Shown piece by piece: positions 3,657 through 43,886 of a stretch of DNA of 64,000 nucleotides. Source of the DNA: a bacterium CG_4_9_14_3_um_filter_65_15. Lineage in GTDB: Bacteria > Krumholzibacteriota > Krumholzibacteriia > LZORAL124-64-63. The notes beneath the pieces are model-generated. The model was not told the DNA's origin and searched no databases. It saw only the letters and a list, made by a program, of their open reading frames with translations. Position 1 is the stretch's first letter, and each line of letters begins with the position of its first letter. A program made the translations under genes and the position numbers. Location of the stretch: NCBI GenBank assembly GCA_002790835.1, contig PFVX01000094.1, forward strand, positions 21,775-85,774, given 5' to 3'.

Positions 3657-3693
3657 TGTACTCTCCGGCGCACTTCGAGGCCGACAGCCGCGG

Positions 3694-20298: not shown

Positions 20299-21831
20299 TC
20301 AGCCACCATGACAATCGCTGCAGTTCGTCGTCTTCCATTCCTCGTCGATATCCTCGGGATGCTTATACTCCACGCCGGCCAGGGATTCGAAGACCTCGCC
20401 GGTCTTGACCTCCTGCGAGACGATGTCGTGGCACAGCCGGCAATCGTGGGAGATCACTTCGCCGTCCTCGGTCTCGTGCAGGCCGTCGTGGCACCGGAAA
20501 CAACCCGGGGTGGTCAGGTGGCCGATGTGGTCGGGGAAGCCCCGCCAGTCCACGTGCATCTCGGGGAAGATGTTCGTCTTGAACAGCTCCTGGGCCGTCG
20601 CCGATGCCTCGGCGATCTCCGCGACCATGATGCCGGCTTTCACGGGATGTTTCTTCCGGTAGAAAGCCGTGATGCCCTGGTCGATGGCCGCCAGGGCCTC
20701 GCCCTCGGTCTCGTACTCGGTGGTCATCAGGTCCACGAGCAGCGATTTGACATCGGGCAGGTCGGCGGAGATCCTGTTCGCGGCCAGGGCCTGGTTGACC
20801 AGGCGGGCCGGCGGGTTGTAGTGGTGCGTCGGCCGGTTGTGGCAGTCGATGCAGTCCATGACCCGCACTTCGTGGCCGGCCAGGGCAACCGAATCGGCGT
20901 CGGCCTCGGTGCTGCGGAAGATCTTCACGTTGCCCGCACCGTCGGTGTAACTCACCCAGGGGATCTCCATGCGCCGCTCGTCGGTCGAAACGTACCGGAT
21001 GGTCACGTCCTCGGCCACGTGCCAGTGGATGCCGTGGGGAGACGTCAGGCCCGCGCCCCCGCCGCCGGTCTTCATCAGCAGCTGAAGGCGCCAGTGGGTG
21101 TTCTCCTCGTCGGGTGCGAAGTAGTCGTGCTGCACCATCTTCTCGCCCAGGAAATGGGCCGGCCAATGGCACTGCTCGCAGGTGTCCCGCGAGGGGCGCA
21201 GGTTGCGGATGGGAGTCTCGATGGGCTTGCTGTACTTGTTGAAGAGCACCGAATAGACCTGGTACGCGCCCGACAGCTTGGAACGGACAAACCACTCGGC
21301 ACCCGGTCCGATGTGACACTTCACGCAGCCCACCCGAGCGTGGGGCGAGACCTGGAAGGCCGTGTATTCCGGTTTCATGACCGTGTGGCACATGGTCCCG
21401 CAGAACTCGTCGCTTTCGGTGTACTCGTAGGCCTGGAAGCTGCCGAAGCCCGTGGCCATCAGGAAGACCACGGTGCCGATGCCGATCAGGATGGTGGCCC
21501 GCAGATGGGCGGGATTGTTCAGGTCGACGCGGGGCAGTTTCTCGGTGGCGGGCAGGCCCAGATGGCGGCGGCGGAGTTGTCGGGCCACGCCGAAGGTCGC
21601 CACGAGCAGACCCAGGATCATGATCCCCGGCAGGACCACGAAGGCGATCACCCCCATGTAGGGGCTATGCGTTTGGGAAAGGTATTCCCAACCCAGAAGC
21701 AGAAGGATCATGCCGACGGCGACGCCGGCGACCCCCCCGCCGAGAAATGTGATGGTGTTGTAGAATGCCGGGGGCATCCTGCGTGCGGCGCTCACTACGG
21801 GTCCGTCGGTACGGTCCTCACTCATGGGCAA
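20299..21831 (-). CDS. NapC/NirT-like membrane-anchored multiheme cytochrome c (7 heme-like motifs)
   Basis: CGTMCH (CX3CH), CVKCH, CEQCH, CIDCH, CFRCH, CRLCH, CSDCH; N-terminal TM helices. Confidence 0.85.
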   Translation of the reverse strand: MPMSEDRTDGPVVSAARRMPPAFYNTITFLGGGVAGVAVGMILLLLGWEYLSQTHSPYMGVIAFVVLPGIMILGLLVATFGVARQLRRRHLGLPATEKLPRVDLNNPAHLRATILIGIGTVVFLMATGFGSFQAYEYTESDEFCGTMCHTVMKPEYTAFQVSPHARVGCVKCHIGPGAEWFVRSKLSGAYQVYSVLFNKYSKPIETPIRNLRPSRDTCEQCHWPAHFLGEKMVQHDYFAPDEENTHWRLQLLMKTGGGGAGLTSPHGIHWHVAEDVTIRYVSTDERRMEIPWVSYTDGAGNVKIFRSTEADADSVALAGHEVRVMDCIDCHNRPTHHYNPPARLVNQALAANRISADLPDVKSLLVDLMTTEYETEGEALAAIDQGITAFYRKKHPVKAGIMVAEIAEASATAQELFKTNIFPEMHVDWRGFPDHIGHLTTPGCFRCHDGLHETEDGEVISHDCRLCHDIVSQEVKTGEVFESLAGVEYKHPEDIDEEWKTTNCSDCHGG

Positions 21832-25066: not shown

Positions 25067-25893
25067 GCGCTGCCCTCCCCCGCCAATAGGTCCATCACGA
25101 TTGCCGACGGTTCGGCCGGACAGATCATTTCGCAGACGCCGCAGCCTACACAGCCGGACAGGACCTGCGGGGTGTAGGTCGCCCGCCCGCCCTTTTCGCC
25201 CGTGGGGACCAGGCGGATGGCCGGCTGGGGCGGACATTGGTTCGGATCCCCGGCCGGTGGATTCCCCGCCTCGCACTGGGAAATGCGGATCTCGATGGGG
25301 CACATCCGGACGCAAAGGTCGCACACTTCCAGGTCGTACTCATGTTCCCTGACCGGAAGGGGGTGCCAGCGGTCGATTTCCGCGTACCGCAGAACCCCCT
25401 TGAAATTCTTGCCCCGCGCCGGCCCCGCGACCCCCTGCCCACGCACGGCGAGGCAGAGGTCGGGCCTCGCCAGGACGGCCGTGGCCATCCGGGCCTGGTG
25501 GGGATAATCGAGGTCATGGGTCAAGGCCCCGGTGGGACAGGCCAGCACGCATTGCAGACCGTCGCAGGAAAAATCGCATGCCTGCCGGCGGGGGTCGATC
25601 CAGGGCGTGCCGACCCCAGCGCCGTCCTGGATGTCCGCCAGGCTGATCGCCTCCACCGGGCAGACCTGGACACATTGCCCGCACTTGATGCAGGCGGACA
25701 GGAAGTCGGCCTCCGCCAGGGCTCCCGGGGGGCGCAACCGCCGCGCCCAGCCCCGCACCACCGGAACCAGTCCCACCAGGGAAGCCCCGATCAGGCCGCC
25801 GATCAGGATCATCGTGCGCAGGAATCTCCTTCGCTTGGGGTTGTCCGGACCTGCGGACCGGGATCTCTTGGCCGATTCAGGGCACATGCTCAC
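25063..25893 (-). CDS. nosG: NapG/NosG-type ferredoxin, Tat-like N-terminus
   Basis: KRRRFLRTMILIGG; CIKCGQCVQVCPVEAI, CDGLQCVLACPTGAL, CDLCVRMCPIEI, CVGCGVCEMICP. Confidence 0.83.
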   Translation of the reverse strand: MSMCPESAKRSRSAGPDNPKRRRFLRTMILIGGLIGASLVGLVPVVRGWARRLRPPGALAEADFLSACIKCGQCVQVCPVEAISLADIQDGAGVGTPWIDPRRQACDFSCDGLQCVLACPTGALTHDLDYPHQARMATAVLARPDLCLAVRGQGVAGPARGKNFKGVLRYAEIDRWHPLPVREHEYDLEVCDLCVRMCPIEIRISQCEAGNPPAGDPNQCPPQPAIRLVPTGEKGGRATYTPQVLSGCVGCGVCEMICPAEPSAIVMDLLAGEGSA

Positions 25894-27151
25894 CCTCCGG
25901 TGACATGCTCATGCCCACTCCGCCACGGTGCATGCGGGGAGCCGAATCCCTGACCAGCAGCCGGGGCTCCGAAAGGGGCACCAATCGCTCAAGGAAGTCC
26001 AGGACCTCCAGCAGGGGCGATCCCTTGAAGAACTGGGCGTAGGGCACGTCGTGCCAAATCCGGTCGGCATAGGCATAGATCTCGTGGGGAGTGTCCCCGA
26101 CGCCGTCATGGTCCCGGTCGAATCCCTCGTAGCCGCTCCAGTAGTTGTCCCGCCACACATTGTTGTTGGCTGTGTTCCCGCCGCTGACGGCGATCTGCGT
26201 GAGGTTGCCGACAAAGCGGTTGCCCTCGAACACGTTGCCGTGCCAGTCGTTGAGAAAGCGGATCCCGATCCCGTTGTAGGCCAGGGTGTTGTTCAGGAAC
26301 CGGTTTTCGGTATCCGGTTGGAAAGGGGACAGGTCGATGTACAGACCGCTGGCGCAGTAGAGAACCTCGTTGTTCTCGATGACCAGGTCGGAAGTCTCCT
26401 TGAAGCCGATTCCGATACCGGTCGGCCCGGACGAATGCAGGATCTGGTTGTTCCGGATCACGACCCCGTCGCTGTACATCAGGAAGATTCCGACCGAATT
26501 GCCCAAGAACCGGTTCCCCGTTACCAGGTTGAATTTCGAATACATAAAATGCAGGGAGTAGCGGCTGTCGGTCTGGGTGTTGTCCCGGATCTCGTTGTCG
26601 GCCGAATACCAGACGACCATGTCCCGCACGTCATGACAGGCGTTCTGCTCGATCTTGTTGTGAAAACTGTACCACAGCCGGATGCCGTCACCCCGCTGGC
26701 CCAGTTCCATAGGCTTGGAAGAGATGGTGTTGCGGCGCACGATGTCGTGTTTGCATTGCTGCATATCGATGCCGAACAGGCAATCGTCGATGACACAGTC
26801 CTTGACTACGTTGAAGTCGCCCCGCAGCTGGATCCCGGCATCGATGTCGTTGTGGGAGGTCCCCGAATTGGTCAGGCGCAGGTTGCGAATCACCGCCCCG
26901 TCGGTATCCAGGTAAAGCACCGTACCCCGGCCGCCGCCGTCGATGACCACGCGGCCTTCGCCGTCCAGGGTCAGGGGGTGATCGATGACGACCGGGCCTT
27001 CATAGACGCCCGGAGGGGGGACCAGCCTTCCGTTGTCCGGGGTGGCATCCACCAGGAGTTGCAGCGGCGTCGGCTGCGCCCCCGCTGCCCGGGTCGCCGG
27101 GAGGCACAGCACCAGCGCGGTCATCGCCAGGTGCAGGCTAGTTGTCTTCAT
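25877..27151 (-). CDS. nosD: Nitrous oxide reductase maturation protein NosD (parallel beta-helix)
   Basis: GVYEGPVVIDHPLTLDGEGRVVIDGGGRGTVL..., repeated NxI/N-rich beta-helix turns, ...DRDHDGVGDTPHEIYAYADRIWHDVPYAQFFKGSPLLEVLDFLERL. Confidence 0.92.
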   Translation of the reverse strand: MKTTSLHLAMTALVLCLPATRAAGAQPTPLQLLVDATPDNGRLVPPPGVYEGPVVIDHPLTLDGEGRVVIDGGGRGTVLYLDTDGAVIRNLRLTNSGTSHNDIDAGIQLRGDFNVVKDCVIDDCLFGIDMQQCKHDIVRRNTISSKPMELGQRGDGIRLWYSFHNKIEQNACHDVRDMVVWYSADNEIRDNTQTDSRYSLHFMYSKFNLVTGNRFLGNSVGIFLMYSDGVVIRNNQILHSSGPTGIGIGFKETSDLVIENNEVLYCASGLYIDLSPFQPDTENRFLNNTLAYNGIGIRFLNDWHGNVFEGNRFVGNLTQIAVSGGNTANNNVWRDNYWSGYEGFDRDHDGVGDTPHEIYAYADRIWHDVPYAQFFKGSPLLEVLDFLERLVPLSEPRLLVRDSAPRMHRGGVGMSMSPEGEHVP

Positions 27152-28319
27152 CGTCCTTGATCCGTTCCCTGCGCAGCAACATGGCCGCCAGCAGGAGAAG
27201 GGAGAAGAGGATCATCAGGCCGAATCCGTATTCGGGATAGGAATTGGTGGTGAACTGCGCAACCTTTCCCTGGCCGAAGACCGTGGGCATGAAAGGCTTC
27301 AACGTGAAGGCGCCCATCTCGTTCATGTGGTGCCCGTACCACCAGAGCCAGACGGAATACTCGATCACGAAGAACAGCGGCAGCCCCGCCGGCGCAAGCG
27401 TCAGCAGTTTTTCGGCGGCGCCGCCGGGCCTGCGGGTGATCCCGACCAGCACGATCATGGCCACGATGATTCCCCAGAAGAGGATCGTCCCCTCCTTGGC
27501 TATGCCGGCCACCATGGGCTCCAGCACCTCCGGATCACGGAAATAGCGGCCCAGGTTTCGCCGGTAGTGCCAGGGAATGAATTGGGAACCGCTGCCCTGC
27601 CATTGTTCGTCCCCGATGCGGTCGGTGTCCTGGTTGAAGGCGTCGCGGAAATAGCGCAGACTCTGTTCCTTGGCGCCGCCGTCAACGGCCGCCGGAGCCG
27701 CCTGAGCCTCACCGCCCTCTGCGGCTTTGCTCTCGGCCAGGGATGCTTTCAGCCGGGCGACCAGGGCCTCGCCGGAGGAAAGCTCCCGGTCGGGGGTTTC
27801 GTCGGCCAGGCTTTCCCCCGAATCCATGACCCGGCCCGCGAGATACCGCGCACTCTGGTAGCGGAGTCCGTCCGGCCCCAGGAAGGCCAGCCCCATCCAG
27901 ACGGCGACGGCCACAAATCCCGCGCTCATGATCGACATGCGCAGGACCGCGCACCTTACCAGGAAGCCCAGCAGCATGACCCCGACCATGGCCACCAGGA
28001 ACAGGGAGAAGAACACCTCCACCGCCCCCCCCGAAGCGATGGGATACATGCCCACATAGTGGTTGATGGTATCCATCTCGTGGACGCAGTCCAGGGCATC
28101 GCCCTCTTGGTCGGCGGATCCGGCAGCCTGCCCGCAGCCGCTGAATACCCCATTGAGATGGAACTCGATCCGCACGCCGTCGGGAAAAACCTCCGGCGGA
28201 TAGTTGGGGGCCTCCAGGGATACCCACCAGATGGGAGCGTTGTAGATGGGCCACAGCAGCCCGATAGCCGCCAGGACCAGGAGGCTGCTGATGAACGATC
28301 TTCGCCGCGCTGTGGTCAT
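27138..28319 (-). CDS. nosB: NosB-like integral membrane protein of clade II nos clusters
   Basis: TM helices; YNAPIWWVSLEAPNYPPEVFPDGVRIEFHLNGVF, INHYVGMYPIASGG, YGHHMNEMGAFTLKPFMPTVFGQGKVAQFTT; sits upstream of nosD as in the Wolinella nosZ-nosB-nosD order. Confidence 0.65.
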   Translation of the reverse strand: MTTARRRSFISSLLVLAAIGLLWPIYNAPIWWVSLEAPNYPPEVFPDGVRIEFHLNGVFSGCGQAAGSADQEGDALDCVHEMDTINHYVGMYPIASGGAVEVFFSLFLVAMVGVMLLGFLVRCAVLRMSIMSAGFVAVAVWMGLAFLGPDGLRYQSARYLAGRVMDSGESLADETPDRELSSGEALVARLKASLAESKAAEGGEAQAAPAAVDGGAKEQSLRYFRDAFNQDTDRIGDEQWQGSGSQFIPWHYRRNLGRYFRDPEVLEPMVAGIAKEGTILFWGIIVAMIVLVGITRRPGGAAEKLLTLAPAGLPLFFVIEYSVWLWWYGHHMNEMGAFTLKPFMPTVFGQGKVAQFTTNSYPEYGFGLMILFSLLLLAAMLLRRERIKDDEDN

Positions 28320-28387: not shown

Positions 28388-29101
28388 TCAGTCGAAATCG
28401 GGGTTGCGCCAATCCTTCGAGGGCGCCAGGTCTTCCTTGGGGACGGGAATGCGCGAGACGTAATTGATGACCGCCTGCATGTCGGTGTCGCTGAAGTTCT
28501 TGATCTGTTTGATCATGTCGGGGTTGGCGTTGCGCCGCTTTCCGTCGCGAATCCACTCGAACTGGCGCAACATGTACGCATAGTGCTGGCCCTGCAGGCG
28601 GGGATAGTACTTCTCCTCGTTGCCCTCGGCCGTCTCGCCGTGGCACTGCACGCAATTGGCCTTGTACAGTTCCTGGCCGTGGGCGAACTCGGGCGTGCCG
28701 TCATCCCACAAACCCTTCCCGTTGTCGGGGTTCATGGGCAGGCTCGCGATGTAGGCCGAGACATCGGCAAGGGACTGGGGGCCGCCGATGGACTGGGGCA
28801 ACGCGAAAGGGTACATGGTGGGGTTGTCCCGGTTCAGGGCGCGGATGTCGGCCAGCTGCTTGATGATGACATCACGGAATTGGCCGGCCAGTTGCGGAAA
28901 AGTCCCCTCCTGGGTCCCCCAGCCTTCGGTCAGGTGGCAGGCGGCGCAGACCTCGTAGACGTCCCGCCCGTTTTCCAGATCCGGCGTGAGGCTGAGGGCC
29001 TCATCCTTCTCTCCGCCTTTGTCGTTCCAGGCCGGCGACTCGACCGTCATGCCTGCGGCAAGAGCGGCGATCACCAGCACCATCATCATTTGCTTCTTCA
29101 T
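28388..29101 (-). CDS. Periplasmic diheme cytochrome c
   Basis: Signal peptide MKKQMMMVLVIAALAAGM; CAACH and CVQCH. Confidence 0.85.
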   Translation of the reverse strand: MKKQMMMVLVIAALAAGMTVESPAWNDKGGEKDEALSLTPDLENGRDVYEVCAACHLTEGWGTQEGTFPQLAGQFRDVIIKQLADIRALNRDNPTMYPFALPQSIGGPQSLADVSAYIASLPMNPDNGKGLWDDGTPEFAHGQELYKANCVQCHGETAEGNEEKYYPRLQGQHYAYMLRQFEWIRDGKRRNANPDMIKQIKNFSDTDMQAVINYVSRIPVPKEDLAPSKDWRNPDFD

Positions 29102-29162
29102 GTCGTTCTCCTTCGCGGATAAACCACGCTCGCGGTTTCGCGGACGTGACGTTGACAGCAGT

Positions 29163-29873
29163 CTACTTCGGCAGGGACGAGACATAATCGGCCAGCTGGG
29201 TCATCTGTTCGTCGTCGACCAGATGCATGACTCCCTGCATGCCGAGAACGGCCATGCTGTTGGCCCTCGCCCCGCTTTTGATATCGCGCATCTGCCTCAG
29301 GATGTATTCCCGGGGTAACCCCGCGATCCGGGGATAATCCGGCAGGATCGGCGTTTTGCCGTCCTTGCCGTGACAGGCGGTGCAGGTCTTGGTCTTGAAC
29401 AGCTTGGCTCCGGGCGATTCCGGATCGGGTTGGCCGCCGATCGGGGCGCCACCGCCCAATTCGTTGGCGATGAAATCCGCCAGGATGATGAATTCGTCCT
29501 CGGTGACATCCTTGATGACCGCCTGCATCTGGGGTGCGTAGCCGCTGGCGCGATTCCCGCTTTGGATGTCCTTCATCTGCCGCAGTGCATAATCCCGCCC
29601 TTGGCGCGCCAGAATGGGATAATCGGGCAGCAACGGATGGATCCCGTCATCCCCGTGGCAAGTGTTGCACGTCTTTTCCCTGAACAGCCGGGCGCCCGCG
29701 GACTCCTGGATCACATCCGCGCCTGTTGCGGCCAGAACGGATTCCCCGTGTGTTCCCCTGATCTTGGCCAGACGATCCTCACGGTCGTTGCAGGAGCAGG
29801 CGGCCAGCCAGGCCAAAGACAGGATGAGCAAGGCAAGAAACGGAGTTTTCGGGGTTCGTTTCATGATCTTCAT
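29163..29873 (-). CDS. Diheme cytochrome c lipoprotein
   Basis: MKIMKRTPKTPFLALLILSLAWLAACSC; CNTCH and CTACH in tandem homologous domains. Confidence 0.83.
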   Translation of the reverse strand: MKIMKRTPKTPFLALLILSLAWLAACSCNDREDRLAKIRGTHGESVLAATGADVIQESAGARLFREKTCNTCHGDDGIHPLLPDYPILARQGRDYALRQMKDIQSGNRASGYAPQMQAVIKDVTEDEFIILADFIANELGGGAPIGGQPDPESPGAKLFKTKTCTACHGKDGKTPILPDYPRIAGLPREYILRQMRDIKSGARANSMAVLGMQGVMHLVDDEQMTQLADYVSSLPK

Positions 29874-29964
29874 CCTCGGGTTCGCAAGCCGCAATTTCGG
29901 CACGTTGTGGCCCCGCCGGGAGCGCCCCCGGCGGGGTCAGGTTAAACTGATTCATTTCCGCCCG

Positions 29965-32256
29965 CTACTTGATCTTCTTGGCGCCGCTCTCCTCGAGGAA
30001 GGTCTTGGCGCGCAGACCCAGGTCGGCGGTTTTGACCTGATATTGCCACCACTGGTTGGCCCAGAGCATGGCGTTCTGCCAGTCGTTCCCGGTGGCCGCG
30101 GTCTCGGCCTTCTGCTTGGCCTCGGCGGCGAAACCCAGCTGGTCGGTGGCGTCTTCCACCAGGGCGAGAACCGTGGGGAATTCCTGATAGTTATGACTGG
30201 TGATGAAAGCCACCACCTGGTCGATGACTTCCTGGGTGGCCTCGTTGGTGGCGACCTGGGTCAGGTAGTCCTCCTTGCTGTAGGCCACGCCTTGCTGCAT
30301 CTCGGCTGTTACGGCCTGGTAGCCCTTGGGCTGGACGAGCAGGTACCCCTCCATCTCCAGGTGCAGGGCGGAACAGAATTCGGTGCAGTAGTAGGGATAG
30401 ACGCCCGCCTTGTCGGCGACGAAGGAGGCGGAGGCCGTCTTTCCCGGCTCGACGGAGAGCTGGATGTTCTGGCCGGAGATGGAGAAGCCGTGCACCTCGT
30501 CCTCGGCGCGCTCCAGGTTGGTCAGGTGGATCAAGACCTTGTCGCCCTCGGTCACCTCGATGATCTCGGGGGTGATGTGGGAGCGGATAAGCGTCCCGAA
30601 CACCTCAACCTTGCCCGGTTGGCGATCGGTCCGTTCACGGCCGGCGCGGGCCCTGAACTCCGACCGCTTCTCCTGCCTGCTGTCCCAGCCGCTCTTGTAG
30701 CGCACAAGGGGATCCAGCTTGTCCATCTTGATGGACACCGCGTAGTGGGGCTCTCCCAGGGGCAGCGGCATGTCGTAGAGCAGGGTCATCGTAGGATGAC
30801 TGATGTCGATGAGCTGGTGGTTCTGGGGATGCAACGGCCCGACCGGATCGAAACGATCGATGGCCAGTTTGTTCAGGGCCACAAGGAACTTCCCGTCGGG
30901 GTTCTTGGTGTCGCCCTCCATGGTCATCAGGTGGCCGACATTATAGTGGATGGGCAGGGTATCGAGGACCTTACCGGTCTTGTAGTTCCACTTGGTGATC
31001 TGCGAGTCCACGTAGATCGATGTGTAGCAGACGCCGTCCTCGGAGTCGAACTGGGTGTGCAGCGGACCGAGGCCGACGCTGACCGACTTGTCCAGGGCCG
31101 CCTCCAACGAGATGATGGGGATGCCGTAGGCGTCGTAGCCCTCGAAATTCCGCCCGTCGATGGCCGCCTTGATCTTGACGAAGCTGTAGACCCAGGCGTG
31201 GCTGTCGAGCTTTCCGGCCACGATGATGGAGGCGCCGTCCGGGGACACATCACAACCGTGGGGGCTCTTCGGCTCCGGGATCAGGAAAAGCAGATCCTCG
31301 GCGATCGCCTGCGCTATGCTGATCAGGTAGTGACCCTTGACTTTCCCCACCTTGCCGGCGGCCACCAGTTCCGCAGCCTTTACCCAGTTGGTCACGTGCA
31401 TGAAGTCCGTGTCCTTGGACGAGCAACCCGCCTCGAAGGGCGGCCGACCACGCTCGATGCCGCCCACATAACGCTCGGAACAGAACGAGTTGGTGAAGCC
31501 CCAACCGTAGCTCGGGCCCTTGCCAGCATCGGAGAGATCCTGGCTGTAGGGAGGTAATTCGAAAGTGAATGTCTGCTCAGGGTCGAGACGTCCAGCCTCG
31601 CGGTCGAACTTCCAGTAGGTCAAGCCTCCGCGGTACTTCTCGTTGAACTCCTCCAGGGGGGCGAATTCGCCGTCCAGGGGCGCGGGGTATTGGCTCCCCT
31701 CCATGACATACTCGGTGTTGGGGGTGGCGAAGCAACCACCGTGGTCGGACTGGAAGAAGGGGTTGGGGACGATCTGTTTGGTCTCGAAATCCTTAAGGTC
31801 GATCACCGCCACCCGGGGATTGGCCTTGTCGTTGATGAACAGGAACTTCCCGTCGTAGTCCCCGTCGGTCTCCGAAATGGCGGGATGATGGGAATCACCG
31901 AAGGTGATGTCCTTGCCGTCGATCCGGCCTCCGGCCAGCACCGCCTTGGACTCGTCGTCGAAACCGTAACCCTGCCAGGGTTCGGGAGTGAAGACGCCGA
32001 TGTATTTGAGGATCCGCATGGAGGGAATGCCGTACACGATCACCTGCCCGCTCTGGCCGCCGGAGCTGAAGCAGAGGTATTCGTCACGCCCACCGGTGGG
32101 AATGTAGGTCTTGGCCGCCGCGAGGACGTCCTTCTCCGTCAGGCCCCTCTCCTGCATCACTTCCTGCAGGGTCTGGGTCCAGGCTGCACTGGAGCCGGCA
32201 AGAGTGCAAATCGCCGTTAACAGCAATACGGCTTTCAGTCGGTTGATCAGCCTCAT
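29965..32256 (-). CDS. nosZ: Nitrous oxide reductase, Sec-type (clade II)
   Basis: Sec signal peptide without twin arginine; DSHHPAISETDGDYDGKFLFINDKANPRVAVID, SDHGGCFATPNTEY, HGCDVSPDG, CuA motif CTEFCSALHLEM. Confidence 0.95.
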   Translation of the reverse strand: MRLINRLKAVLLLTAICTLAGSSAAWTQTLQEVMQERGLTEKDVLAAAKTYIPTGGRDEYLCFSSGGQSGQVIVYGIPSMRILKYIGVFTPEPWQGYGFDDESKAVLAGGRIDGKDITFGDSHHPAISETDGDYDGKFLFINDKANPRVAVIDLKDFETKQIVPNPFFQSDHGGCFATPNTEYVMEGSQYPAPLDGEFAPLEEFNEKYRGGLTYWKFDREAGRLDPEQTFTFELPPYSQDLSDAGKGPSYGWGFTNSFCSERYVGGIERGRPPFEAGCSSKDTDFMHVTNWVKAAELVAAGKVGKVKGHYLISIAQAIAEDLLFLIPEPKSPHGCDVSPDGASIIVAGKLDSHAWVYSFVKIKAAIDGRNFEGYDAYGIPIISLEAALDKSVSVGLGPLHTQFDSEDGVCYTSIYVDSQITKWNYKTGKVLDTLPIHYNVGHLMTMEGDTKNPDGKFLVALNKLAIDRFDPVGPLHPQNHQLIDISHPTMTLLYDMPLPLGEPHYAVSIKMDKLDPLVRYKSGWDSRQEKRSEFRARAGRERTDRQPGKVEVFGTLIRSHITPEIIEVTEGDKVLIHLTNLERAEDEVHGFSISGQNIQLSVEPGKTASASFVADKAGVYPYYCTEFCSALHLEMEGYLLVQPKGYQAVTAEMQQGVAYSKEDYLTQVATNEATQEVIDQVVAFITSHNYQEFPTVLALVEDATDQLGFAAEAKQKAETAATGNDWQNAMLWANQWWQYQVKTADLGLRAKTFLEESGAKKIK

Positions 32257-32431: not shown

Positions 32432-33163
32432 TCAGTCGTCGACCACCGAAAGGTAGGCCAGGAGGTCTGCCAAATCCGGGTCACTCAGCCCCTGCAGGGG
32501 TTTTCCCATCTTCGGGTCCTTGCGCTTCCCGGTCCGGAACGCGGCGACCTGTCGGGCAAGGTATTCCGAATACTGACCGGCCAGCTGAGGGTTGGAGCCT
32601 TGTCCGGCGCCCTCCCGTCCGTGGCATTTCCTGCACTCGCGGTGGTAGATCGCCTCTCCCGCCGCGGGGTCACCGTCGTACTGCGGTATGTTCAGGACCC
32701 GCTTGGCGAGCATCAGTTTGGCGTAGGCGTCCAGGTCCGGATCCACCGGGGGCATGCGGGTGAACAGTTCGAGACCGGTCAGATAAGTGGAAATGTTCAG
32801 GATGTCGGCTTCCGGAAGCTCCCGGTCGTTGGCGTAGGGAGCCATGGCCATGTTCTCCCACTCCCCGCTCTTGAAGGCCCGCAGCTGATTCGCGATGTAC
32901 TTGACGGGCAAACCAGCAATCCGGGGGTATTCGCCGCCACCGCCGCCCTGTCCGAATTCTCCGTGGCACCCCGCGCAAAGCTCCATGATTTCCTTCCCGA
33001 TGTCCGCGTCGTAGACATACTCCGTGGCTTCGTCCCCGGAAACCGCAAACCCGGAGGAAGCCGCCGTGGCCAGCAGCAGCGTCAGGATCCCGGAAGCGGC
33101 AACCAGCCCCAACCACCGAAAAGGGGAGCTCCGCGCACTCTCGATGTTGTAGCCATGCGGCAT
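32432..33163 (-). CDS. Membrane-anchored/secreted diheme cytochrome c
   Basis: Signal/TM FRWLGLVAASGILTLLLATAASSG; CAGCH and CRKCH. Confidence 0.85.
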   Translation of the reverse strand: MPHGYNIESARSSPFRWLGLVAASGILTLLLATAASSGFAVSGDEATEYVYDADIGKEIMELCAGCHGEFGQGGGGGEYPRIAGLPVKYIANQLRAFKSGEWENMAMAPYANDRELPEADILNISTYLTGLELFTRMPPVDPDLDAYAKLMLAKRVLNIPQYDGDPAAGEAIYHRECRKCHGREGAGQGSNPQLAGQYSEYLARQVAAFRTGKRKDPKMGKPLQGLSDPDLADLLAYLSVVDD

Positions 33164-33193: not shown

Positions 33194-34750
33194 CTAGCCG
33201 TCGAAATTGCCCTCGGGCGGAGGAGAGGGAACCGTCCACTCCAGGGTCACGGCCCCCCACGGATTGACCTCGGCGGCATCACCGCTCCAGATGGACGCAA
33301 GAAGATTGCCTGCGGTGACCCCAAGGCCGGAATACACAATCAACCAACCCAGGCCCGAAACCTGGGCTTGGGCCAGGAATCCGGACACAAGACCGATCGC
33401 ATCCTCCGGCACTCCCTGGGTGCCCATGATCACGCGAGGCACGAGGGCCAAATTGAGGCCCACGATGTACAGGACCGCCCCCAGGTTGGCAACGCCTGCA
33501 ACAAAGTTGCGGCCCACCATCTTCGGCCACCAGAAATGCAGGCCCGCCAGCAGGGCCGCCATCACCCCGCCCCACAGGATATAATCCAGCTGTGCCGAAG
33601 CGAACAGGGAGGTCCCCAGATAGGAGCCCAGAGACGGACTGGCCAGCAGCATCCCCATCCCCACGGCGATTCCGGCATGCAGCAGGAAACCGAGTGCAAA
33701 AAATGCAGCGGGAGACAGGGTGATACTTCCCCGGTACAAAGTTGAAAGCCAGGTGAAACCAATCAGGGCCGCGGGGATGAGCACCAGCAGGCTGAAAAAA
33801 CTGAAGACCAGGCTGGATCCCGGGTCGAGACCCCGGCCGATGAGTGCAACCCCCGAACTGGCCACAGCCAGGCCGGCCAGGGCAATCATGGATCCGACCA
33901 GGAGCCGATAACCGGGGGAAGTCCTGCGGGAGATCCCGCTGATAAGGTCGCTGAGGATGCCCACTCCGGGTATCAGGGCGAAATACGCCACCGGGCGGAT
34001 GGAGAACCAGAAATAGGAACGCCAGACCATGGGGTCGGCCTCCCAGCCGAACAGCCCCGTGGTGGTGATGCGGCTGGCGGTCATGAACAGGGCCACAGCG
34101 GCGAATACCGCCCCGGAAAAGATCAGAAGGTAGCCGTAGACATACATGCCCCATACCGTCAGCGGCATGTCGAAAAATCCCATTTCCTGTCTGCGACCGT
34201 GATGCACGGTGACCACGAAATTGATTCCCGTCAACATCCAGCTCATGGCCATGAAGAAGAGCCCGACCAGCAGCACCTCGAAAGCTCCCGGCTCCAGCAT
34301 GGCCAAGCGCGAATCCATGGTCCATCCGGTGCCGATGGGGCAGATGATCTGCGAGGCCAGAAGCAACAGCAGCCCGATGACATGGAAGTGCAAGCTGAGG
34401 CGGGAAAGAACCGGCAGGGCCATGTTGCGGGCGCCCAGTTGCAAGGGCAACAGGAAGAACCCCAGGACGCCCGGCAGGACCGGTACCATCCAGCCCATGA
34501 CCTGGATCAGGCGTTGGTAGGTAATGACCTGGGTCAGCATCCGCCGTTCGAAATCGCCCCCACCCAGTGCCATCATCAGGGGCAGCATGGCAAGGATCAT
34601 GGCCATCACGAAGGCTGCAGCGGTCCAGGCCAGATACATGAGGGCGACCCGCTTGTGGTCCGTGGACCGGAACCACCCCATTACCCCGCCGGGTCCGCCC
34701 AGATAACTGTCGCGCAGTGCATCCACCGCCGAATGACTGGTGTTATCCAT
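33194..34750 (-). CDS. Heme-copper oxidase subunit I-like protein lacking canonical heme and CuB ligands
   Basis: STDHKRVALMYL, FLLPLQLGARNMALP, ALIPGVGILSDLI, STLYRGSITLSPAAFFALGF, GGVMAALLAGLHFWWPKMVGR match the COX1 scaffold; ligand positions are substituted (see findings). Confidence 0.85.
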   Translation of the reverse strand: MDNTSHSAVDALRDSYLGGPGGVMGWFRSTDHKRVALMYLAWTAAAFVMAMILAMLPLMMALGGGDFERRMLTQVITYQRLIQVMGWMVPVLPGVLGFFLLPLQLGARNMALPVLSRLSLHFHVIGLLLLLASQIICPIGTGWTMDSRLAMLEPGAFEVLLVGLFFMAMSWMLTGINFVVTVHHGRRQEMGFFDMPLTVWGMYVYGYLLIFSGAVFAAVALFMTASRITTTGLFGWEADPMVWRSYFWFSIRPVAYFALIPGVGILSDLISGISRRTSPGYRLLVGSMIALAGLAVASSGVALIGRGLDPGSSLVFSFFSLLVLIPAALIGFTWLSTLYRGSITLSPAAFFALGFLLHAGIAVGMGMLLASPSLGSYLGTSLFASAQLDYILWGGVMAALLAGLHFWWPKMVGRNFVAGVANLGAVLYIVGLNLALVPRVIMGTQGVPEDAIGLVSGFLAQAQVSGLGWLIVYSGLGVTAGNLLASIWSGDAAEVNPWGAVTLEWTVPSPPPEGNFDG

Positions 34751-34752
34751 TT

Positions 34753-35733
34753 CTACTTGTCCTCCTGGGGGCCGGCTTCGCCATGGTCGGAAAGGCTTTC
34801 CAGGTACGCGACGATGGCCTCGATTTTCCTGTCGTCCAGCTTGCCATCGAAGGTAGGCATGACGCCCTGGAAGCCCTCGACTACGAATGCGTTGGGAGAA
34901 AGGACCGACTCCTTGACGTAACCCGCATCGACTTTTCGGGTCCGACCGTCGGTGGAGACCGCTTCATGACCGTACAGATTCTTGAAGGACGGACCCACGA
35001 GCTTGGAGCCGTCCAGGGAATGGCAGGCCTTGCACCCCTGGGCGACATAGAGAAATTCGCCGACCTCGGCCATGGTGCGTCCGGCGAAGATGTCCGATGC
35101 CGCTGCCAGCCAGGAGGCAAAATCCGGCTCGCTCAGGGCAATCATCGCCACGGGCAGGCTGTCATAACGGACACTGCTGAAAGTCCCGGAATAGATGGGA
35201 AAGGTCCCCGGTGTGATGGGTTCGAACCAGGTCTCGGTCGTGCGGCCGGGCAGCACCGCCTGCTGAACCCGCATGGCGGGAATAGCCAACTGCCGGCTGA
35301 TGTCTTCGCTGGTCAACGCAAGGAGGACCGGCTTGCCCGTAGGCACGCGGAGAGTATCAGCGACATAACCGCCGGGATAGGCGAAATCCCAGGCGCCCTC
35401 GCGGGTGGTGATATCGATGGCATAGGAATCATACGGGGGAACGGTGCTGTCCACGAATTCGCCCAGGCCCGCCATGAAGGCGAAACCGCCCAACGCAATC
35501 GTCCCCAGCATCCAGGCGCCCAGCAGGCACTTGTTCAAGCCGCCGGCGGGCACTTGTTCCGGGTCACCGCTACGGCGCCGAAATGCGAACATGAAAGTGA
35601 CGGCCAAGCCCACAGTCAGGATCAGGACGATTAGGCCCACGAAATAAAGGTCATAGAAAACCATGTCCACGCCGGGGGCAAAGGTCGAAGCCCATTCCGG
35701 GAACCAGGCTGAGAGATTGGCGCTACCCATCAA
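34753..35733 (-). CDS. Cytochrome oxidase subunit II-like protein fused to cytochrome c, lacking CuA ligands
   Basis: Two N-terminal TM helices, cupredoxin-like AMRVQQAVLPGRTTETWFEPITPGTFPIYSGTFSS, C-terminal GCKACHSLDGSKLVGPSFKNLYG...GVMPTFDGKL. Confidence 0.85.
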   Translation of the reverse strand: MMGSANLSAWFPEWASTFAPGVDMVFYDLYFVGLIVLILTVGLAVTFMFAFRRRSGDPEQVPAGGLNKCLLGAWMLGTIALGGFAFMAGLGEFVDSTVPPYDSYAIDITTREGAWDFAYPGGYVADTLRVPTGKPVLLALTSEDISRQLAIPAMRVQQAVLPGRTTETWFEPITPGTFPIYSGTFSSVRYDSLPVAMIALSEPDFASWLAAASDIFAGRTMAEVGEFLYVAQGCKACHSLDGSKLVGPSFKNLYGHEAVSTDGRTRKVDAGYVKESVLSPNAFVVEGFQGVMPTFDGKLDDRKIEAIVAYLESLSDHGEAGPQEDK

Positions 35734-35801: not shown

Positions 35802-36110
35802 CTATCTTGAATTCTCGGCCACAACCCTACGCATGGCGTCCTCGATGGGCAGGCAGGCCTTGGTGCGCTGCTCATCCAGCCAGCGCGGCTGTTCTTCCAG
35901 GATGCTCTGCTGCTCGGCCAGGGCCGCCTGCAGGGGTTCGTTCTCGGGAACGAGGAGCTTGGTATCCCTCACCTGGTTTTGCGACGCCAGAAACCCTCCC
36001 TGCAGGAACAGGGACAGGGCGTAGAGAAAGATGATCAGGGCCAGCCCGCACAGCAGTACCGCCGGCGTGTTGAAGCCCGATTTTCCGCGTGCACTCTCTT
36101 GCATGGTCAT
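35802..36110 (-). CDS. Small single-TM periplasmic protein of the ACIII/oxidase operon
   Basis: TPAVLLCGLALIIFLYALSLFLQGGF then LAEQQSILEEQPRWLDEQRTKACLPIEDAMRRVVAE. Confidence 0.6.
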   Translation of the reverse strand: MTMQESARGKSGFNTPAVLLCGLALIIFLYALSLFLQGGFLASQNQVRDTKLLVPENEPLQAALAEQQSILEEQPRWLDEQRTKACLPIEDAMRRVVAENSR

Positions 36111-36159: not shown

Positions 36160-37365
<1,206 letters not shown>

Positions 37366-37408: not shown

Positions 37409-38071
37409 TCACCTTGTGCCCAAGTTCTCCAGGGCGGCGCGGTCGTCGGCGGGCACGTCCGCGAGACTCGCGTTGCGGGACAGCTGCAGAGCGCGCACGT
37501 ACGCGACGATGGCCCAGCGGTCCCGCGGGTCGATCTGGTTCTTGTACGACGGCATGTTGCGGATGCCGTGGGTGATCGTGTTGTAGATGTGCCCCACCGG
37601 ACGGTCCACCACGCTCTGGCCGACCAGGTCGCTGGGCGGGGTCCAGGTGCCTTCGGCCAGGGCCGTGGCGCGGATATTCACCACGCCGTTGCCGTTGCCC
37701 GATAGGCCGTGGCAGGGCGCACAGAAGATCTGGAAGCGTTCCTGTCCGCGGTGCATCAGGTCCTGGTCAACGGTGACGGGAAACTCGGTCACGAAGGTCG
37801 TGTCGCCCTCGACGCGGCCCCGGAAGAAGGGGTCGCCCGCGCGCAGGTCGCCGCGGGCCACGGTGCCGTCCACCGGGGTGCGCATGGAGCGGCCGTCGGC
37901 GAAGAAATCGTCCGCGGACTGGGCCTTGTAGTAGTACTGGTTGTCCATGTCGTAGACGACCTGGATGCGGGGCTGCCCCTTGACGGAATGGCGCGCCCGG
38001 TAGATGCATCCGATGGGCACCAGGGTCAGGGCCACCAGCACCAGTCCGATGGAGATCAACGGTCGGGGCAT
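37409..38071 (-). CDS. actE: Alternative complex III monoheme cytochrome c, ActE
   Basis: MRTPVDGTVARGDL...GQERFQIFCAPCHGLSGNGNG...DRPVGHIYNTITHGIRNMPSYKNQIDPRDRWAIVAYVRALQ. Confidence 0.87.
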   Translation of the reverse strand: MPRPLISIGLVLVALTLVPIGCIYRARHSVKGQPRIQVVYDMDNQYYYKAQSADDFFADGRSMRTPVDGTVARGDLRAGDPFFRGRVEGDTTFVTEFPVTVDQDLMHRGQERFQIFCAPCHGLSGNGNGVVNIRATALAEGTWTPPSDLVGQSVVDRPVGHIYNTITHGIRNMPSYKNQIDPRDRWAIVAYVRALQLSRNASLADVPADDRAALENLGTR

Positions 38072-38074: not shown

Positions 38075-38626
38075 TCAGTCCTCCGCGCTTTCATGGATTT
38101 CCTCAACCTCGGAACCGCCGAGGGAGGCCAAAAACTCACGCGTCTTCTCCAGCTTGAAGGCCGGGTCGCGCGCTTCGATCACGATGAAGAAGCGGTCCTG
38201 TGTGGCTCTGCGGAACCGCTTGCTGGTCAGCAGGGGGTTGTACCACCGCGGCATGCCGTTCAGGCCCCACATGCCGAAAAAGGCCGCAAAGGCGCTGAAC
38301 AGCACCGTCAATTCGAACATGATGGGGATGTTGGCCGGCAGCCCGAACAGCGGCTTGCCCGAGATCACGAAGGGGTAATCCACCGCGTTCATCCACCACT
38401 GCATCAGGGTGGCCGCGGCCAGGCCGATCAGGCCGCCGCCCAGGATGATGAAGGGCAGGCGCGTGCCCCGGATCCCCATGAAGTCGTCCATGCCGTGCAC
38501 CGGGAACGGCGAGTGCACGTCCCACTTCTTGAATCCCGCGTCGCGGACCCGCATCGCGGCCGCGGCCAGCAGGCTGGGGCTCTCGAACTCGATCAGCAGG
38601 CCGTAGAGGTCTCCCTGTTTCATCAC
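38075..38626 (-). CDS. actD: Alternative complex III subunit ActD (DUF3341)
   Basis: [60 protein letters not shown]. Confidence 0.87.
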
Positions 38627-40083
38627 TTGTGCCCCTTCCTGCGAACGTGCTCGGGGATGTCGCCGTGGTAATCCCCCACGATGTGCCGCTCACCGCTGTG
38701 CGGGTCGGCAATGGGCATCACGGTCTTGACCTCGGCCATGGCGACCATGGGCAGGAAGCGGATGAACAGCAGCACCAGCGTGAAGAACAGCCCCCAGCTG
38801 CCCAGGAAGGTCAGGATGTCCACGATGGTGGGCCGGTAGTAGGCCCAGCTCGAGGGCAGGAAGTCACGACTCAGCGAGGAAACCGTGATCACGAAACGCT
38901 CGAACCACATGCCGATGTTCACGAAGATGTACAGCACCCACATCACCGGGATCGAGGTGCGCAGCTTCTTGAACCAGAACAGCTGCGGCGTGACCACGTT
39001 GCAGGTCACCATGATCCAATAGGCCCACGCGTAGGGGCCGAAGGCGCGGTTGACGAAGGCGAAGCCCTCGGTGGGGTTGCCGCCGTACCAGGCGATGAAG
39101 AACTCGGTGGCGTAGGCGAACCCGACCATGCTGCCGGTGGCCAGGATGATCTTGTTCATGTTCTCCAGGTGATGCAGGGAGATGATCTCCTTGAGCCCGA
39201 AGAACTGCCGCGCCGGAATGAGGATCGTGCCCACCATGGCGAAGCCGCTGAACACGGCGCCGGCCACGAAGTAGGGCGGGAAGATCGTGGTGTGCCAGCC
39301 GGGCAGCTGCGCGGTGGCGAAGTCGAAGGAAACCACCGAGTGCACCGACAGCACCAGGGGCGTGGCCAGCCCGGCCAGGATCAGGTAGGCCTTTTCGTAG
39401 CGGTGCCAGTGCCGGTGGCTGCCCACCCAGCCCAGCGAGAGCACGCCGTAGATGATCTGTTGCAGCCTGCCCTTGGCGCGGTCGCGCAGGGTGGCCAGAT
39501 CCGGCACCATGCCCGTGTACCAGAACAGCAGCGAGACCGTGGCGTAGGTGCCCACGGCGAACACGTCCCACAGCAGCGGGCTGCGGAAGTTGGGCCACAT
39601 GTTCTGGAAGTTGGGAATCGGGAACAGCCACCACACGACCCACACGCGGCCCACGTGGATGCCGGGAAAGATCCCGGCGCAGATCACCGCGAAGATGGTC
39701 ATGGCCTCGGCGAAGCGGTTGATGGACGTGCGCCACTTCTGCCGCAGCAGGAACAGGATGGCCGAGATCAGCGTGCCGGCGTGGCCGATACCCACCCAGA
39801 ACACGAAGTTCACGATGGCCCAGCCCCAACCCACCGGGTTGTTCAGGCCCCAGACCCCCACGCCCGTGAGGAACAGGTAGCCGATCATCAGGAAGAGGAT
39901 CCCCGTCAGGCCGGCGGTGATGGTGAACATCACGTACCAGGCCAGCGGCGTCTTCCGCTCCAGGACGATGTCCGAGACCGTCTCGGTGATCGACGTGAAG
40001 TCGTTGCCCCCGAGGATCAACTCCTGGGTGTAACGCGGGTCGTCGCTGGTGTTGTTCAGATAGTCGGTAGCCGACGATTTCAT
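38623..40083 (-). CDS. actC: Alternative complex III subunit ActC (NrfD/PsrC-like)
   Basis: [64 protein letters not shown]; ten-TM NrfD-type protein. Confidence 0.9.
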
Positions 40084-40100: not shown

Positions 40101-43100
40101 CTAGCCGTGTTCGCTGCCGGGGTGCCCGGTGTGGGCGGCGATCTGGGGATTCGGATTCCGGATGCGGGCCATGTAGGAGGTCCGCGGCTTGATGTTGAGG
40201 TAGGCCAGCAGGTCGTACGACCGCGGCACCTTGCGCAGCTTGGCGACGCGGCTCTCCGGATCGTTCAGGTCGCCGAAGACGATGGCGTCGGTGGGACACG
40301 TCTGGGCGCATGCGGGGGTGATGTCCCCGTCGCGGATCTTGCGGTTCCCGTCGACCCGGGCGGCCACCCGCGCCTTCTCGATGCGCTGCACGCAGTAGGT
40401 GCATTTCTCCATGACCCCGCGTGCCCGCACCGTCACGTCGGGATTGAGCACCAGCCGCTGGGTCGCGGTCAGGTCCTCGAAATTGTTGAACCAGTTGAAT
40501 CGCCGCACCTTGTAGGGGCAGTTGTTCGAGCAGTAGCGCGTGCCCACGCAGCGGTTGTAGACCATGGTGTTGAGACCCTCGCTGCTGTGCATGGTCGCAG
40601 CCACCGGGCAGACCTCTTCGCAGGGGGCCAGCTCGCACTGGGCGCAGGCCACCGGCTGCTGGGCGCACTCGGGATCCTCGGCGTCGCCCAGGAAATACCG
40701 GTCCAGCCGGATCCAGGACATCTCACGCCCGCGGGCCACCTCGTCCTTGCCGACCACCGCGATGTTGTTCTCGGCCTGGCAACCGATGATGCAGGCGTTG
40801 CAGCCGTTGCAGGCGTTCAGGTCGACGCTCATGCCCCACTTGTAGCCGTTGTAGTCCCATTCCTTCCACAGCGATTCCAGGGGCGGATGGTGGATGCCCA
40901 GGTGGTCCACGAATTCGGGATGCTCGCGGTACTCCTCAAGGTCGCCCTGGCGCACCAGGCCGGGCACGCGCTTCTGGATCTCCTCGGCGCCCACGGTGTC
41001 CATGGCGAAGTGATCCTGGGTGGTGGCCAGCTTGTAGGTCGCGCCGGTTTTGGTCAGCTTCAGGCCCGCGCCGCCGTGCAGCGCGCCGCTGGTGCGCAGG
41101 GTGTAGGCGTTGAAGCCCGAGCCCTGGCCCACCCGCCCCGAGTCGGGCTTGCCGTAGCCCAGCATCACCGAGACCGAGTAGCGCGCCTGGCCGGGCAGCA
41201 CGTAGACCGGAATCGCCTGCTTGCGGCCGGCGAATTCCAGGTCCACCAGGTCGCCGTGGCCCACGCCCAGCTCCACCGCGGTGGCGGGGCTCAGCAGGGC
41301 GGCGTTATCCCAGGTCAGCTTGGTCATGAAGTCGGGCATCTCCTGCAGCCAGGCGTTGTCGCAGAAGCGACCGTCGAACACGGACTGGTCGTGGTGGATG
41401 CTCAGTTCGAGACTCTGCGCCGACAGATCGCCCGGCGCCCGGGGCGCGGCGAGGGGCGTGCCGGTCAGGGCCAGGGGCTCGCCCCGTTTGGCCGATCCCT
41501 GCAGCACGCCGTCGTGGATGAACCGTCGCCACTTCTTCTCGAAGCGGTCGTTGCCCTCGGGCGCGGACTTCCCGGCGCCGCTGATTCGCGCGAAGGAATC
41601 GCGGGCGACGGCGTAGGCGTTGCGCGGGGTCTCGTCGACCAGAACGGACAGCACCTCGGTAACGGTCTTGCCGCCGAAGAGCGGCCGGATCAGGGGCTGC
41701 ACCGCCAGGTAGGATCCGTCCCAGCCCATGGCGTCGCCCCAACCCTCGAGATAATGGGCCCGGGGCAGGTGCCACTGGCACAGGCGCGAGGTGGCGTCAT
41801 CGTTCAGCGAAACGTGGATGCGGGTGCCCGCCTTCTGCATGGCGGCGCCGAAACCCAGATCCGCCGGCGCGTCGTAGGCCGGGTTCCCGCCCAGGATCAG
41901 CAGGGTATCCACGGCACCGGACTTCAGGTCCTTGGTCAGGTCGGCAATGTCGCCCAGCTTGGCCATGTCGAACGGCTGGTAGGAAACGGTCTGGCCCACG
42001 TTGCCCAGGGCCTGGTTCAGCAGGTGGATCAGCGCGTGGGTCTCGGGGCTCTGGCGCATACCCGCTACGAGCAGGCTCGCACCCCGGTTGGCCATCAGAT
42101 CCTTGGCCAGAGCGGCGATATGCTCGCCGCCGGCGGAATGCCCGCGCCAACCCTGCAGGTCGGAGCGGGAAACGCCCGCGCCCATGGGCAAGGGCAGCCC
42201 CTCACCCAGCACCAGTTCGGCCGCCAGCGCCCACACGGCCGCGGGGATGTGGCTCGCCGGAGTCGGGAAGCGGTGATCGGCCATGCCGCCGGTGATGGTG
42301 AAGGTGTTCTCGAAGACGTACAGCCGGTTCATGTGGCCGGACTCGGGCCGGCGCCCCTTGGCGAAACGGCGGCTGTTGCGCAGGGACGAGGCGTGGTCCT
42401 GCAGGAAGTTGGCGTCGAAATCGACGATGACCTCGGCCTTGTCCACGGCCAGCTGGCTACGGGCCGGAGTGCCGAAGGCCAACCGGGCGCCCTGCATCTC
42501 GTTGATGCGGCACACCGGCTCGTGATAGTACAGCTTCGCCCCGCGATACTGCTGCCCGATGCGGCCCATGAGGTCCCACACCGCCGGCGAGGTGGTCATC
42601 TCGGTCAGGACGGCCAGGCCGCCCCCACGCAGGCGGGGAAAGTGCCCGACGGCGAACGTCCCGAAATCATCCCAGGTCGCCTTGGCGCCGGATGACGAAT
42701 CACCGAACTGATTACGTCGCAAAATGTTCTGGCTGCGGTCGGGGTTATAGAGGCCCAGCACGCTGGCCTGGGCGAAAACGTTGGTCGCCCCGCCGCTCAA
42801 GGGAACTTCGGGGTTCCCGTCGATCTTGATGGGACGCCCGTCGTAGCTGGTGGCCAGCACGGGAAGGGCCACCGGCCCCATCTCGAAGGTCGTGGCGAAC
42901 TGCCGCGGCGTGCCCGGGTCGGTACCCTCGGGCCGCTGGGCGTAGGGCATGATCTTTTCCTCGGGCCAGCGGCAACCGGCCAGGGTCGCCAGGGCCGCCG
43001 AGGCGCCCATGATCTGCAGGAAACGCCGGCGGGACATATCGTCGGGAGCCTCGATGCCGCCGGGAAACTCTTGCTCCTGGAGACGGCTGAACTCGCTGCC

Positions 43101-43157
43101 GGCGGCCAGCTCGTCGAGGCTGCGCCAGAAATCCCTTTTTTGGCTGCTGTCGGACAT
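40101..43157 (-). CDS. actB: Alternative complex III subunit ActB (molybdopterin-oxidoreductase-like/FeS fusion, Tat-variant)
   Basis: DDMSRRRFLQIMGASAALATLAGC; C-terminal CNGCNACIIGCQAENN, CAQCELAPCEEVCP, CVGTRYCSNNCPYKVRRFNW, CTYCVQRI. Confidence 0.92.
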   Translation of the reverse strand: MSDSSQKRDFWRSLDELAAGSEFSRLQEQEFPGGIEAPDDMSRRRFLQIMGASAALATLAGCRWPEEKIMPYAQRPEGTDPGTPRQFATTFEMGPVALPVLATSYDGRPIKIDGNPEVPLSGGATNVFAQASVLGLYNPDRSQNILRRNQFGDSSSGAKATWDDFGTFAVGHFPRLRGGGLAVLTEMTTSPAVWDLMGRIGQQYRGAKLYYHEPVCRINEMQGARLAFGTPARSQLAVDKAEVIVDFDANFLQDHASSLRNSRRFAKGRRPESGHMNRLYVFENTFTITGGMADHRFPTPASHIPAAVWALAAELVLGEGLPLPMGAGVSRSDLQGWRGHSAGGEHIAALAKDLMANRGASLLVAGMRQSPETHALIHLLNQALGNVGQTVSYQPFDMAKLGDIADLTKDLKSGAVDTLLILGGNPAYDAPADLGFGAAMQKAGTRIHVSLNDDATSRLCQWHLPRAHYLEGWGDAMGWDGSYLAVQPLIRPLFGGKTVTEVLSVLVDETPRNAYAVARDSFARISGAGKSAPEGNDRFEKKWRRFIHDGVLQGSAKRGEPLALTGTPLAAPRAPGDLSAQSLELSIHHDQSVFDGRFCDNAWLQEMPDFMTKLTWDNAALLSPATAVELGVGHGDLVDLEFAGRKQAIPVYVLPGQARYSVSVMLGYGKPDSGRVGQGSGFNAYTLRTSGALHGGAGLKLTKTGATYKLATTQDHFAMDTVGAEEIQKRVPGLVRQGDLEEYREHPEFVDHLGIHHPPLESLWKEWDYNGYKWGMSVDLNACNGCNACIIGCQAENNIAVVGKDEVARGREMSWIRLDRYFLGDAEDPECAQQPVACAQCELAPCEEVCPVAATMHSSEGLNTMVYNRCVGTRYCSNNCPYKVRRFNWFNNFEDLTATQRLVLNPDVTVRARGVMEKCTYCVQRIEKARVAARVDGNRKIRDGDITPACAQTCPTDAIVFGDLNDPESRVAKLRKVPRSYDLLAYLNIKPRTSYMARIRNPNPQIAAHTGHPGSEHG

Positions 43158-43169: not shown

Positions 43170-43886
43170 CTAGCGATGGCAAGTGGCGCAATCGGTGGAC
43201 GGGGCAATGCCGTGTTCTTTCATCAGCCGCGCGCCCAGGTCGGCGGGATCTTCGCCGTTGGGGGGCTGCCAGGTCATATCCGTCACGAATTCCTTGGGCC
43301 GCAGATTGGGCTCGGGGTTGCGATGGCAGCCCAGGCACCAGCCCATGGTCAGAGGTTTGTCCTGGGCAACGACTTCCATGCGGTCGATGCGGCCGTGACA
43401 ACTGACGCAACCCACCCCGGACTGGATATGCCCGGCGTGATTGAAGTACACGAAATCCGGCAGGTCGTGGACCCGGACCCAGGGGATGGGTTCACCGGTC
43501 TCCGCGCTCTTGCGCACCAGTTCCAGCTTGGGGCTCTCGGTGCGCACGTGGCTGTGGCAGTTCATGCAGGTCGAAGTGGGCGGGATGTTCGCCTTGGCCG
43601 TGGTTTCCACGCTGGTGTGGCAATAACGGCAATCGATGCCCATCGCGCCCACGTGCAGGGCATGGCTGTAGGACACCGGCTGGGTCGGCGCGTAGCCCAT
43701 GGCCGAAGTCTCGGGGGAAAACACCCCGTAGACCAGAACGACAGCGTAAACCAGGCCACCGAGAGCGGCGACGGCGGAAATCTCCCGCAGGCGATTGGTC
43801 CAGCGGGGAAAAACGAACTTGTCGGTGGTTGTCGTCCCGGAACCGGAAGCGGTTCCATCCTGGAATTCGTTATCGTTCCGAGTCAA
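43170..43886 (-). CDS. actA: Alternative complex III pentaheme cytochrome ActA
   Basis: Five CxxCH: CRYCH, CMNCH, CVSCH, CLGCH, CATCH; SHALHVGAMGIDCRYCHTSVETTAKANIPPTSTCMNCH. Confidence 0.9.
   Translation of the reverse strand: MTRNDNEFQDGTASGSGTTTTDKFVFPRWTNRLREISAVAALGGLVYAVVLVYGVFSPETSAMGYAPTQPVSYSHALHVGAMGIDCRYCHTSVETTAKANIPPTSTCMNCHSHVRTESPKLELVRKSAETGEPIPWVRVHDLPDFVYFNHAGHIQSGVGCVSCHGRIDRMEVVAQDKPLTMGWCLGCHRNPEPNLRPKEFVTDMTWQPPNGEDPADLGARLMKEHGIAPSTDCATCHR

Follow-up and report, generated by a model that had tools for sequence, protein, structure and literature searches.

A cytochrome oxidase subunit I homolog without metal ligands between Alternative Complex III and nitrous oxide reductase genes in Krumholzibacteriota

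The window analysed here, a stretch of 64,000 nucleotides, carries on its minus strand the genes of an Alternative Complex III (ACIII), two oxidase subunit homologs and a nos gene cluster, the window genes listed below all being encoded on that strand. The ActA-F gene set of ACIII was found to comprise ActA, a multiheme cytochrome c (43170..43886), ActB (40101..43157), ActC (38623..40083), the sole full ActC in the genome, ActD (38075..38626), recognised by operon position, ActE, a monoheme cytochrome c (37409..38071) that by analogy with Rhodothermus marinus would be the electron outlet of the complex, and ActF (36160..37365), which had no Pfam match and was assigned from its conserved place in the operon and from homology across act loci. 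These are followed by the gene for a 102-aa protein (35802..36110) with one transmembrane-like segment and no Pfam match, which was present in intact as well as in pseudo operons and is putatively ActG-like by position, and then by pCOX2 (34753..35733) and pCOX1 (33194..34750), homologs of the oxidase subunits II (COX2) and I (COX1). A diheme c-type cytochrome, cytc1 (32432..33163), lies directly after pCOX1, followed by NosZ (29965..32256), a diheme-type cytochrome c (29163..29903), a diheme cytochrome c (28388..29185), a NosB-like membrane protein (27138..28319), assigned by its position in the nos cluster and without a match in Pfam or NCBIfam, and NosD (25877..27151); a NapC/NirT-type cytochrome with six CxxCH motifs (20299..21831) is located 3' of the nos genes. 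Elsewhere, the same genome encodes intact oxidases of the aa3 and cbb3 types, as well as a qNOR-like gene.

An earlier note, made from the letters of this DNA, had described a 519-codon frame at 33194-34750 as a heme-copper oxidase subunit I homolog with every metal ligand replaced. Its coordinates were correct, the reading frame running from 34750 to 33194 on the minus strand and encoding 518 aa plus a stop, and the homology was borne out by the Pfam COX1 model PF00115, which matched with E=2.7e-56 over nearly its entire length. The assignment of pCOX1 as a COX1 homolog without ligands for heme a, heme a3 and CuB drew on alignments, a fold model and dN/dS (omega). Alignment to solved COX1 chains and 84 intact homologs placed Q79 (heme a), R252 (CuB), V301 and A302 (CuB pair), Q387 (heme a3) and D389 (heme a) in the ligand columns, with the tyrosine retained as Y256, so that all the positions proposed in the note were right. 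All the intact homologs (84/84) read HHYHHHH at these columns, which excludes chance or misalignment as the source of the 0/6 histidine ligands in the window pCOX1; misalignment was likewise ruled out by the agreement of three independent alignments, and the alignment to the solved chains had no histidine at any of the six positions. The D-channel (D132 to N, N121 to F) and K-channel (K362 to I) residues of a proton-pumping A-type oxidase were missing, and the heme-propionate arginine pair RR was replaced by ED. By descent pCOX1 thus belongs to the heme-copper oxidase superfamily (COX1 family, 12-TM fold), while as an enzyme, which takes six histidines, it falls outside. An AF2 model (pLDDT 87, pTM 0.90) kept the COX1 fold, with a TM-score of 0.92 to Paracoccus COX1 (1ar1_A), in line with the topology expected in the note; since intact homologs were in the input alignment, this result is supportive, not independent. 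The pairs Q79/D389 and R252/Q387, recurrent in the ligand-free group, may fill the vacated pockets.

The partner protein pCOX2, whose start codon is TTG at 35733 or, directly after it, ATG, has by alignment lost its CuA ligands (H to R, C to S, C to S, H to Y and M to L) and keeps an intact C-terminal cytochrome c domain with the heme c site CKACH and the distal Met292. Among 21 pCOX2 sequences the CuA cysteines were kept in none and both were replaced in all, in one row one of them by a gap, and the CxxCH and distal Met of the cytochrome c domain were kept in 21/21. Compared with a caa3-type oxidase, the module has the cytochrome c domain at the C-terminus of subunit II and is devoid of CuA and of COX3 and COX4 in the operon. 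In an intact sister operon (L140), act is followed by the small TM protein, Sco, COX2, COX1, COX3 and COX4, and a further one (L141) is alike as far as it could be read; Sco, COX3 and COX4 are all absent from the pseudo operon. The whole oxidase was thus de-metallated along with the loss of its copper chaperone gene, and the electron-carrying c heme stayed.

The window's lineage (phylum-level, one class) was represented by 80 species genomes, of which at least 28 carried a pseudo-COX1 gene, and this ruled out a ligand loss confined to one genome; nearly all the genomes compared were fragmented drafts. The 28 pseudo-COX1 sequences were monophyletic against 35 intact ones (support 100/100, group recovered in all bootstrap trees), and a long branch parted them from intact COX1. 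A further 17 low-identity COX1 sequences of the lineage and L143 were all intact, and two from G013 and G022 were pseudo-COX1. A screen of about 300 genomes from other phyla detected no clade member; a broader contig scan yielded one among the matches listed (L035), which matches G028:C165, and in a plasmid search no homolog among the matches listed exceeded about 33% identity. The gene order act, ActG-like, pCOX2, pCOX1 was found wherever the contig extended, except in the g11 pair; act was not adjacent to pCOX in G013 and G022, and in G022 ActC shared a contig with nos. Two pCOX1 copies were carried by G010, one (L149, G010:C143) with cytc1 and a tailed NosZ, the other (L118, G010:C94) without nos.

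Ligand loss was graded along the branching within the clade: two CuB ligands, the K-channel lysine and Arg482 were gone clade-wide, and heme ligands survived in some lineages. The CuB histidines H284 and H333, K362 and the heme-propionate Arg482 were each found in 0/26 of the clade members aligned. Several lineages kept the histidines of both hemes (signature H T F V H H H). Among the heme ligands, only that of a3 was missing in some members, whereas a 12-member group lacked the second ligand of heme a as well; none of the six was left in the window pCOX1 and its four nearest relatives. In these five ligand-free members R252, Q387 and D389 were common to all and Q79 to four. The complete loss claimed in the earlier note consequently holds for the window's subclade and not for the wider clade, where only the loss of CuB and CuA is shared and many members keep heme ligands, and in these the hemes may still count. 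In the literature searched, of which coverage was partial, we found no description of a COX1 lineage devoid of all metal ligands.

Strong purifying selection was evident from one-ratio codon models, in which omega was 0.061 when estimated on the ligand-free subclade and 0.068 on the whole clade, within the range of ActB-F and NosZ (ActF 0.086, ActE 0.093, NosZ 0.062), and pairwise values of 0.06-0.29 were obtained for the closest pseudo-COX1 pairs. Structural residues were invariant across pseudo-COX1. The view of pCOX1 as a selected non-catalytic scaffold instead of a decayed oxidase, also taken from the note, was upheld by these values, by the invariant residues, by the occurrence of the clade in 28 genomes and by the conserved operon position.

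The window NosZ scored 846.6 bits against TIGR04246 (cut-off 625) and has all the conserved copper-site His and Cys residues, as expected for a Sec-type (clade II) enzyme. It ends in a 120-aa C-terminal extension (residues 644-763, window 29965-30324), for which no convincing match was found in PDB sequences and no domain in Pfam. Every NosZ of a pCOX locus with a readable C-terminus carried the extra 120 aa, and within the lineage the tail was confined to them, the unlinked NosZ with a readable C-terminus being without it. Tailed NosZ occurred in 14/28 pCOX genomes versus 0/52 of the others (Fisher p=3e-8, uncorrected for relatedness) and was contiguous with pCOX or the act operon in 13 of the 14, the remaining one being cut by contig ends; NosZ and its accessory genes adjoined pCOX1 in 12 genomes and stood just upstream of act in G044, and contig ends intervened in G013. 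A short contig (L171, G333:C802) in a genome of another family group carried a tailed NosZ 81% identical to that of the window, which could reflect transfer or binning contamination.

The idea raised in the earlier note that the clade might always reside in act-nos loci stood for act wherever contigs reach, two g11 genomes excepted, and was ruled out for nos, which half of the clade is without. The NapC/NirT-type cytochrome (six CxxCH) was found downstream of pCOX1 in the nos-less relatives with enough contig (G001, G002, G003, G004, G010:C94, G019, G021 and G028), in most of them directly; in the window the nos genes stand between the two. It looks, from gene order, like nos is a cassette gained or lost between pCOX1 and this cytochrome, with a swappable acceptor. 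The cytc1 gene was found only in ligand-free, nos-linked members (the window, G027, G032 and G010:C143), as if its addition had coincided with the loss of the heme path. In a nos-less member, L120 (G007), narG/narH-like genes were seen at 1924-7170 downstream of pCOX1, as judged on the sequence start only; they possibly encode another acceptor for the pCOX module.

A search with the NosZ tail outside the lineage found a genome of another, unrelated phylum (G319) in which act genes are followed by a fused CcoNO (L169, 8875-11007, minus strand), a CcoP-like cytochrome, a tailed NosZ and a second NosZ. Aligned with five solved CcoN, its CcoN has QQ in place of the CuB pair HH and E in place of the b3 histidine, and keeps the low-spin heme b His and the first CuB histidine; the locus keeps its c-heme subunits. 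A different oxidase class has thus lost its O2 site independently at the same genetic position, in a single genome from a phylum represented by two in our sample. NosZ is a head-to-tail homodimer. The two tandem NosZ of G319 (L169, 3264-5639 and 5639-7903, minus strand) showed complementary site losses, the tailed one keeping CuA and having lost most CuZ histidines, the other keeping all the conserved CuZ histidines, having lost CuA and bearing a C-terminal CxxCH domain; given the head-to-tail arrangement, the pair looks like an obligate heterodimer.

With moderate confidence, we favour the reading that pCOX1 and pCOX2 are a de-metallated caa3-type oxidase, kept as a non-catalytic membrane adaptor of ACIII from which electrons go on to NosZ or to other acceptors; the physical complex, the electron path and the docking by the NosZ tail are the parts that we infer. 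ACIII would draw electrons from quinol and hand them on via ActA and ActE, and pCOX1 would sit next to ACIII in the position of oxidase subunit I, holding pCOX2 so that its c-type heme faces ActE. Since CuA, CuB and both hemes are gone, electrons cannot proceed to O2; they would exit from the cytochrome c domain of pCOX2, first to periplasmic carriers and from these to an acceptor encoded nearby. In the window this acceptor would be NosZ, probably reached via the diheme cytochromes and likely docked through its tail; for relatives without nos, the NapC-type multiheme cytochrome is the probable acceptor.

Several observations speak for the adaptor: the sites that have been lost serve O2 chemistry and proton pumping, and the c-heme ligands are kept throughout; Sco, COX3 and COX4 are missing, the act-pCOX operon order is conserved and the NosZ tail is associated with it; the clade is monophyletic and its omega resembles that of ActE, ActF and NosZ; G319 offers a convergent case in another phylum; and separate intact aa3 and cbb3 oxidases exist in the window's own genome. 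The geometry in R. marinus, where oxidase subunit I/III adjoins ActC and the IIc cytochrome lies near ActE, itself a direct donor (PMC5928083), also counts in its favour. Against it, the ACIII contact in the Flavobacterium johnsoniae supercomplex runs via COX3 (PMC8361435), which is absent here, so that pCOX1 itself would have to make the contact; half of the clade has no adjoining NosZ, so that the acceptor is not fixed; and act is not adjacent to pCOX in G013 and G022.

The same distribution would fit pCOX1 as a structural subunit only, which stabilises or anchors ACIII and hands no electrons to NosZ, the nos adjacency being a matter of operon clustering: linkage to act is near universal and linkage to nos is found in half, and G002, from the same genus, has no nos between pCOX1 and the multiheme cytochrome, yet keeps pCOX. 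We consider this unlikely, as both heme ligands of the cytochrome c domain are kept in all 21 pCOX2, within the lineage only NosZ encoded at pCOX loci bear the tail, and the convergent cbb3 case likewise retains its c-heme subunits. The residues shared by the ligand-free members could instead mean that Q79/D389 and R252/Q387 bind another metal, a heme or a quinone and confer a different redox or transport activity, which seems improbable because the proton-channel and propionate-anchoring residues are gone as well and the replacing residues differ between subclades.

A COX1-derived assembly, sensing or regulatory protein outside any respiratory complex would agree with the loss of all catalytic features and with the faster divergence of pCOX1, which is 46-47% identical within a genus in which ActC is 94% identical; however, the co-retention of pCOX2 with its heme c and the fixed operon place after act suggest a complex subunit, and we hold such a role to be very improbable. 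The progressive loss of ligands along the tree might be taken for a decaying remnant of an oxidase operon, but the long open frames in 28 genomes and an omega of about 0.06 after ligand loss leave this extremely improbable. Apart from a single unplaced TAG flagged in L010, whose extracted frame has 518 aa and no stop, the in-frame stops that were flagged lay 5' of the true start, or at the C-terminal end in the case of L023; with neither an omega near 1 nor frequent truncations seen, pseudogene decay of pCOX1 was ruled out by omega and intact ORFs.

The adaptor reading can be carried further, to a dedicated N2O respirasome in which a stripped terminal oxidase would be the permanent coupler of ACIII and NosZ, arisen independently from an A-type caa3 and a C-type cbb3, each beside a NosZ with the same docking tail; we offer this tentatively, as a possible but rather doubtful generalisation. 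The clade indicates that a heme-copper oxidase scaffold can persist for architecture alone, and supplies the intermediates of a stepwise removal of CuB and CuA, then heme a3, then heme a. How clade II organisms supply NosZ with electrons from the membrane has, to our knowledge, yet to be settled, and the pCOX module offers a proposed physical path by which electrons of the quinol pool could reach N2O reductase. If the adaptor reading is true, destruction of the greenhouse gas N2O by NosZ could be tied to a dead oxidase module. Annotation pipelines score pCOX1-like genes as COX1, and thus oxygen respiration may be over-predicted.

A precedent for a redox-enzyme homolog kept as a scaffold after active-site loss exists in the same complex, since ActB of ACIII is a CISM-like subunit without molybdenum cofactor, although ActB has a different fold from pCOX1 and still bears Fe-S clusters. 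The nos genes resemble clade II (Sec-type) operons (nosZ, B, D, F, Y) in gene content and in the intact copper ligands of NosZ, and differ from the usual ones in being linked directly to ACIII through a dead oxidase and in the C-terminal extension of NosZ. As in the F. johnsoniae ACIII-aa3, ACIII is paired with an oxidase-like module, here by gene linkage, whereas the oxidase of that supercomplex is active and its contact subunit COX3 has no counterpart in the pseudo operon. The closest likeness in layout is to the R. marinus ACIII-caa3, with act followed by oxidase genes, a COX2 with C-terminal cytochrome c, the 12-helix COX1 fold and a predicted electron hand-over from ActE to the subunit II cytochrome; unlike that oxidase, the pCOX module is without the ligands of heme a, heme a3, CuB and CuA and the D- and K-channel residues, and Sco, COX3 and COX4 are missing from its operon.
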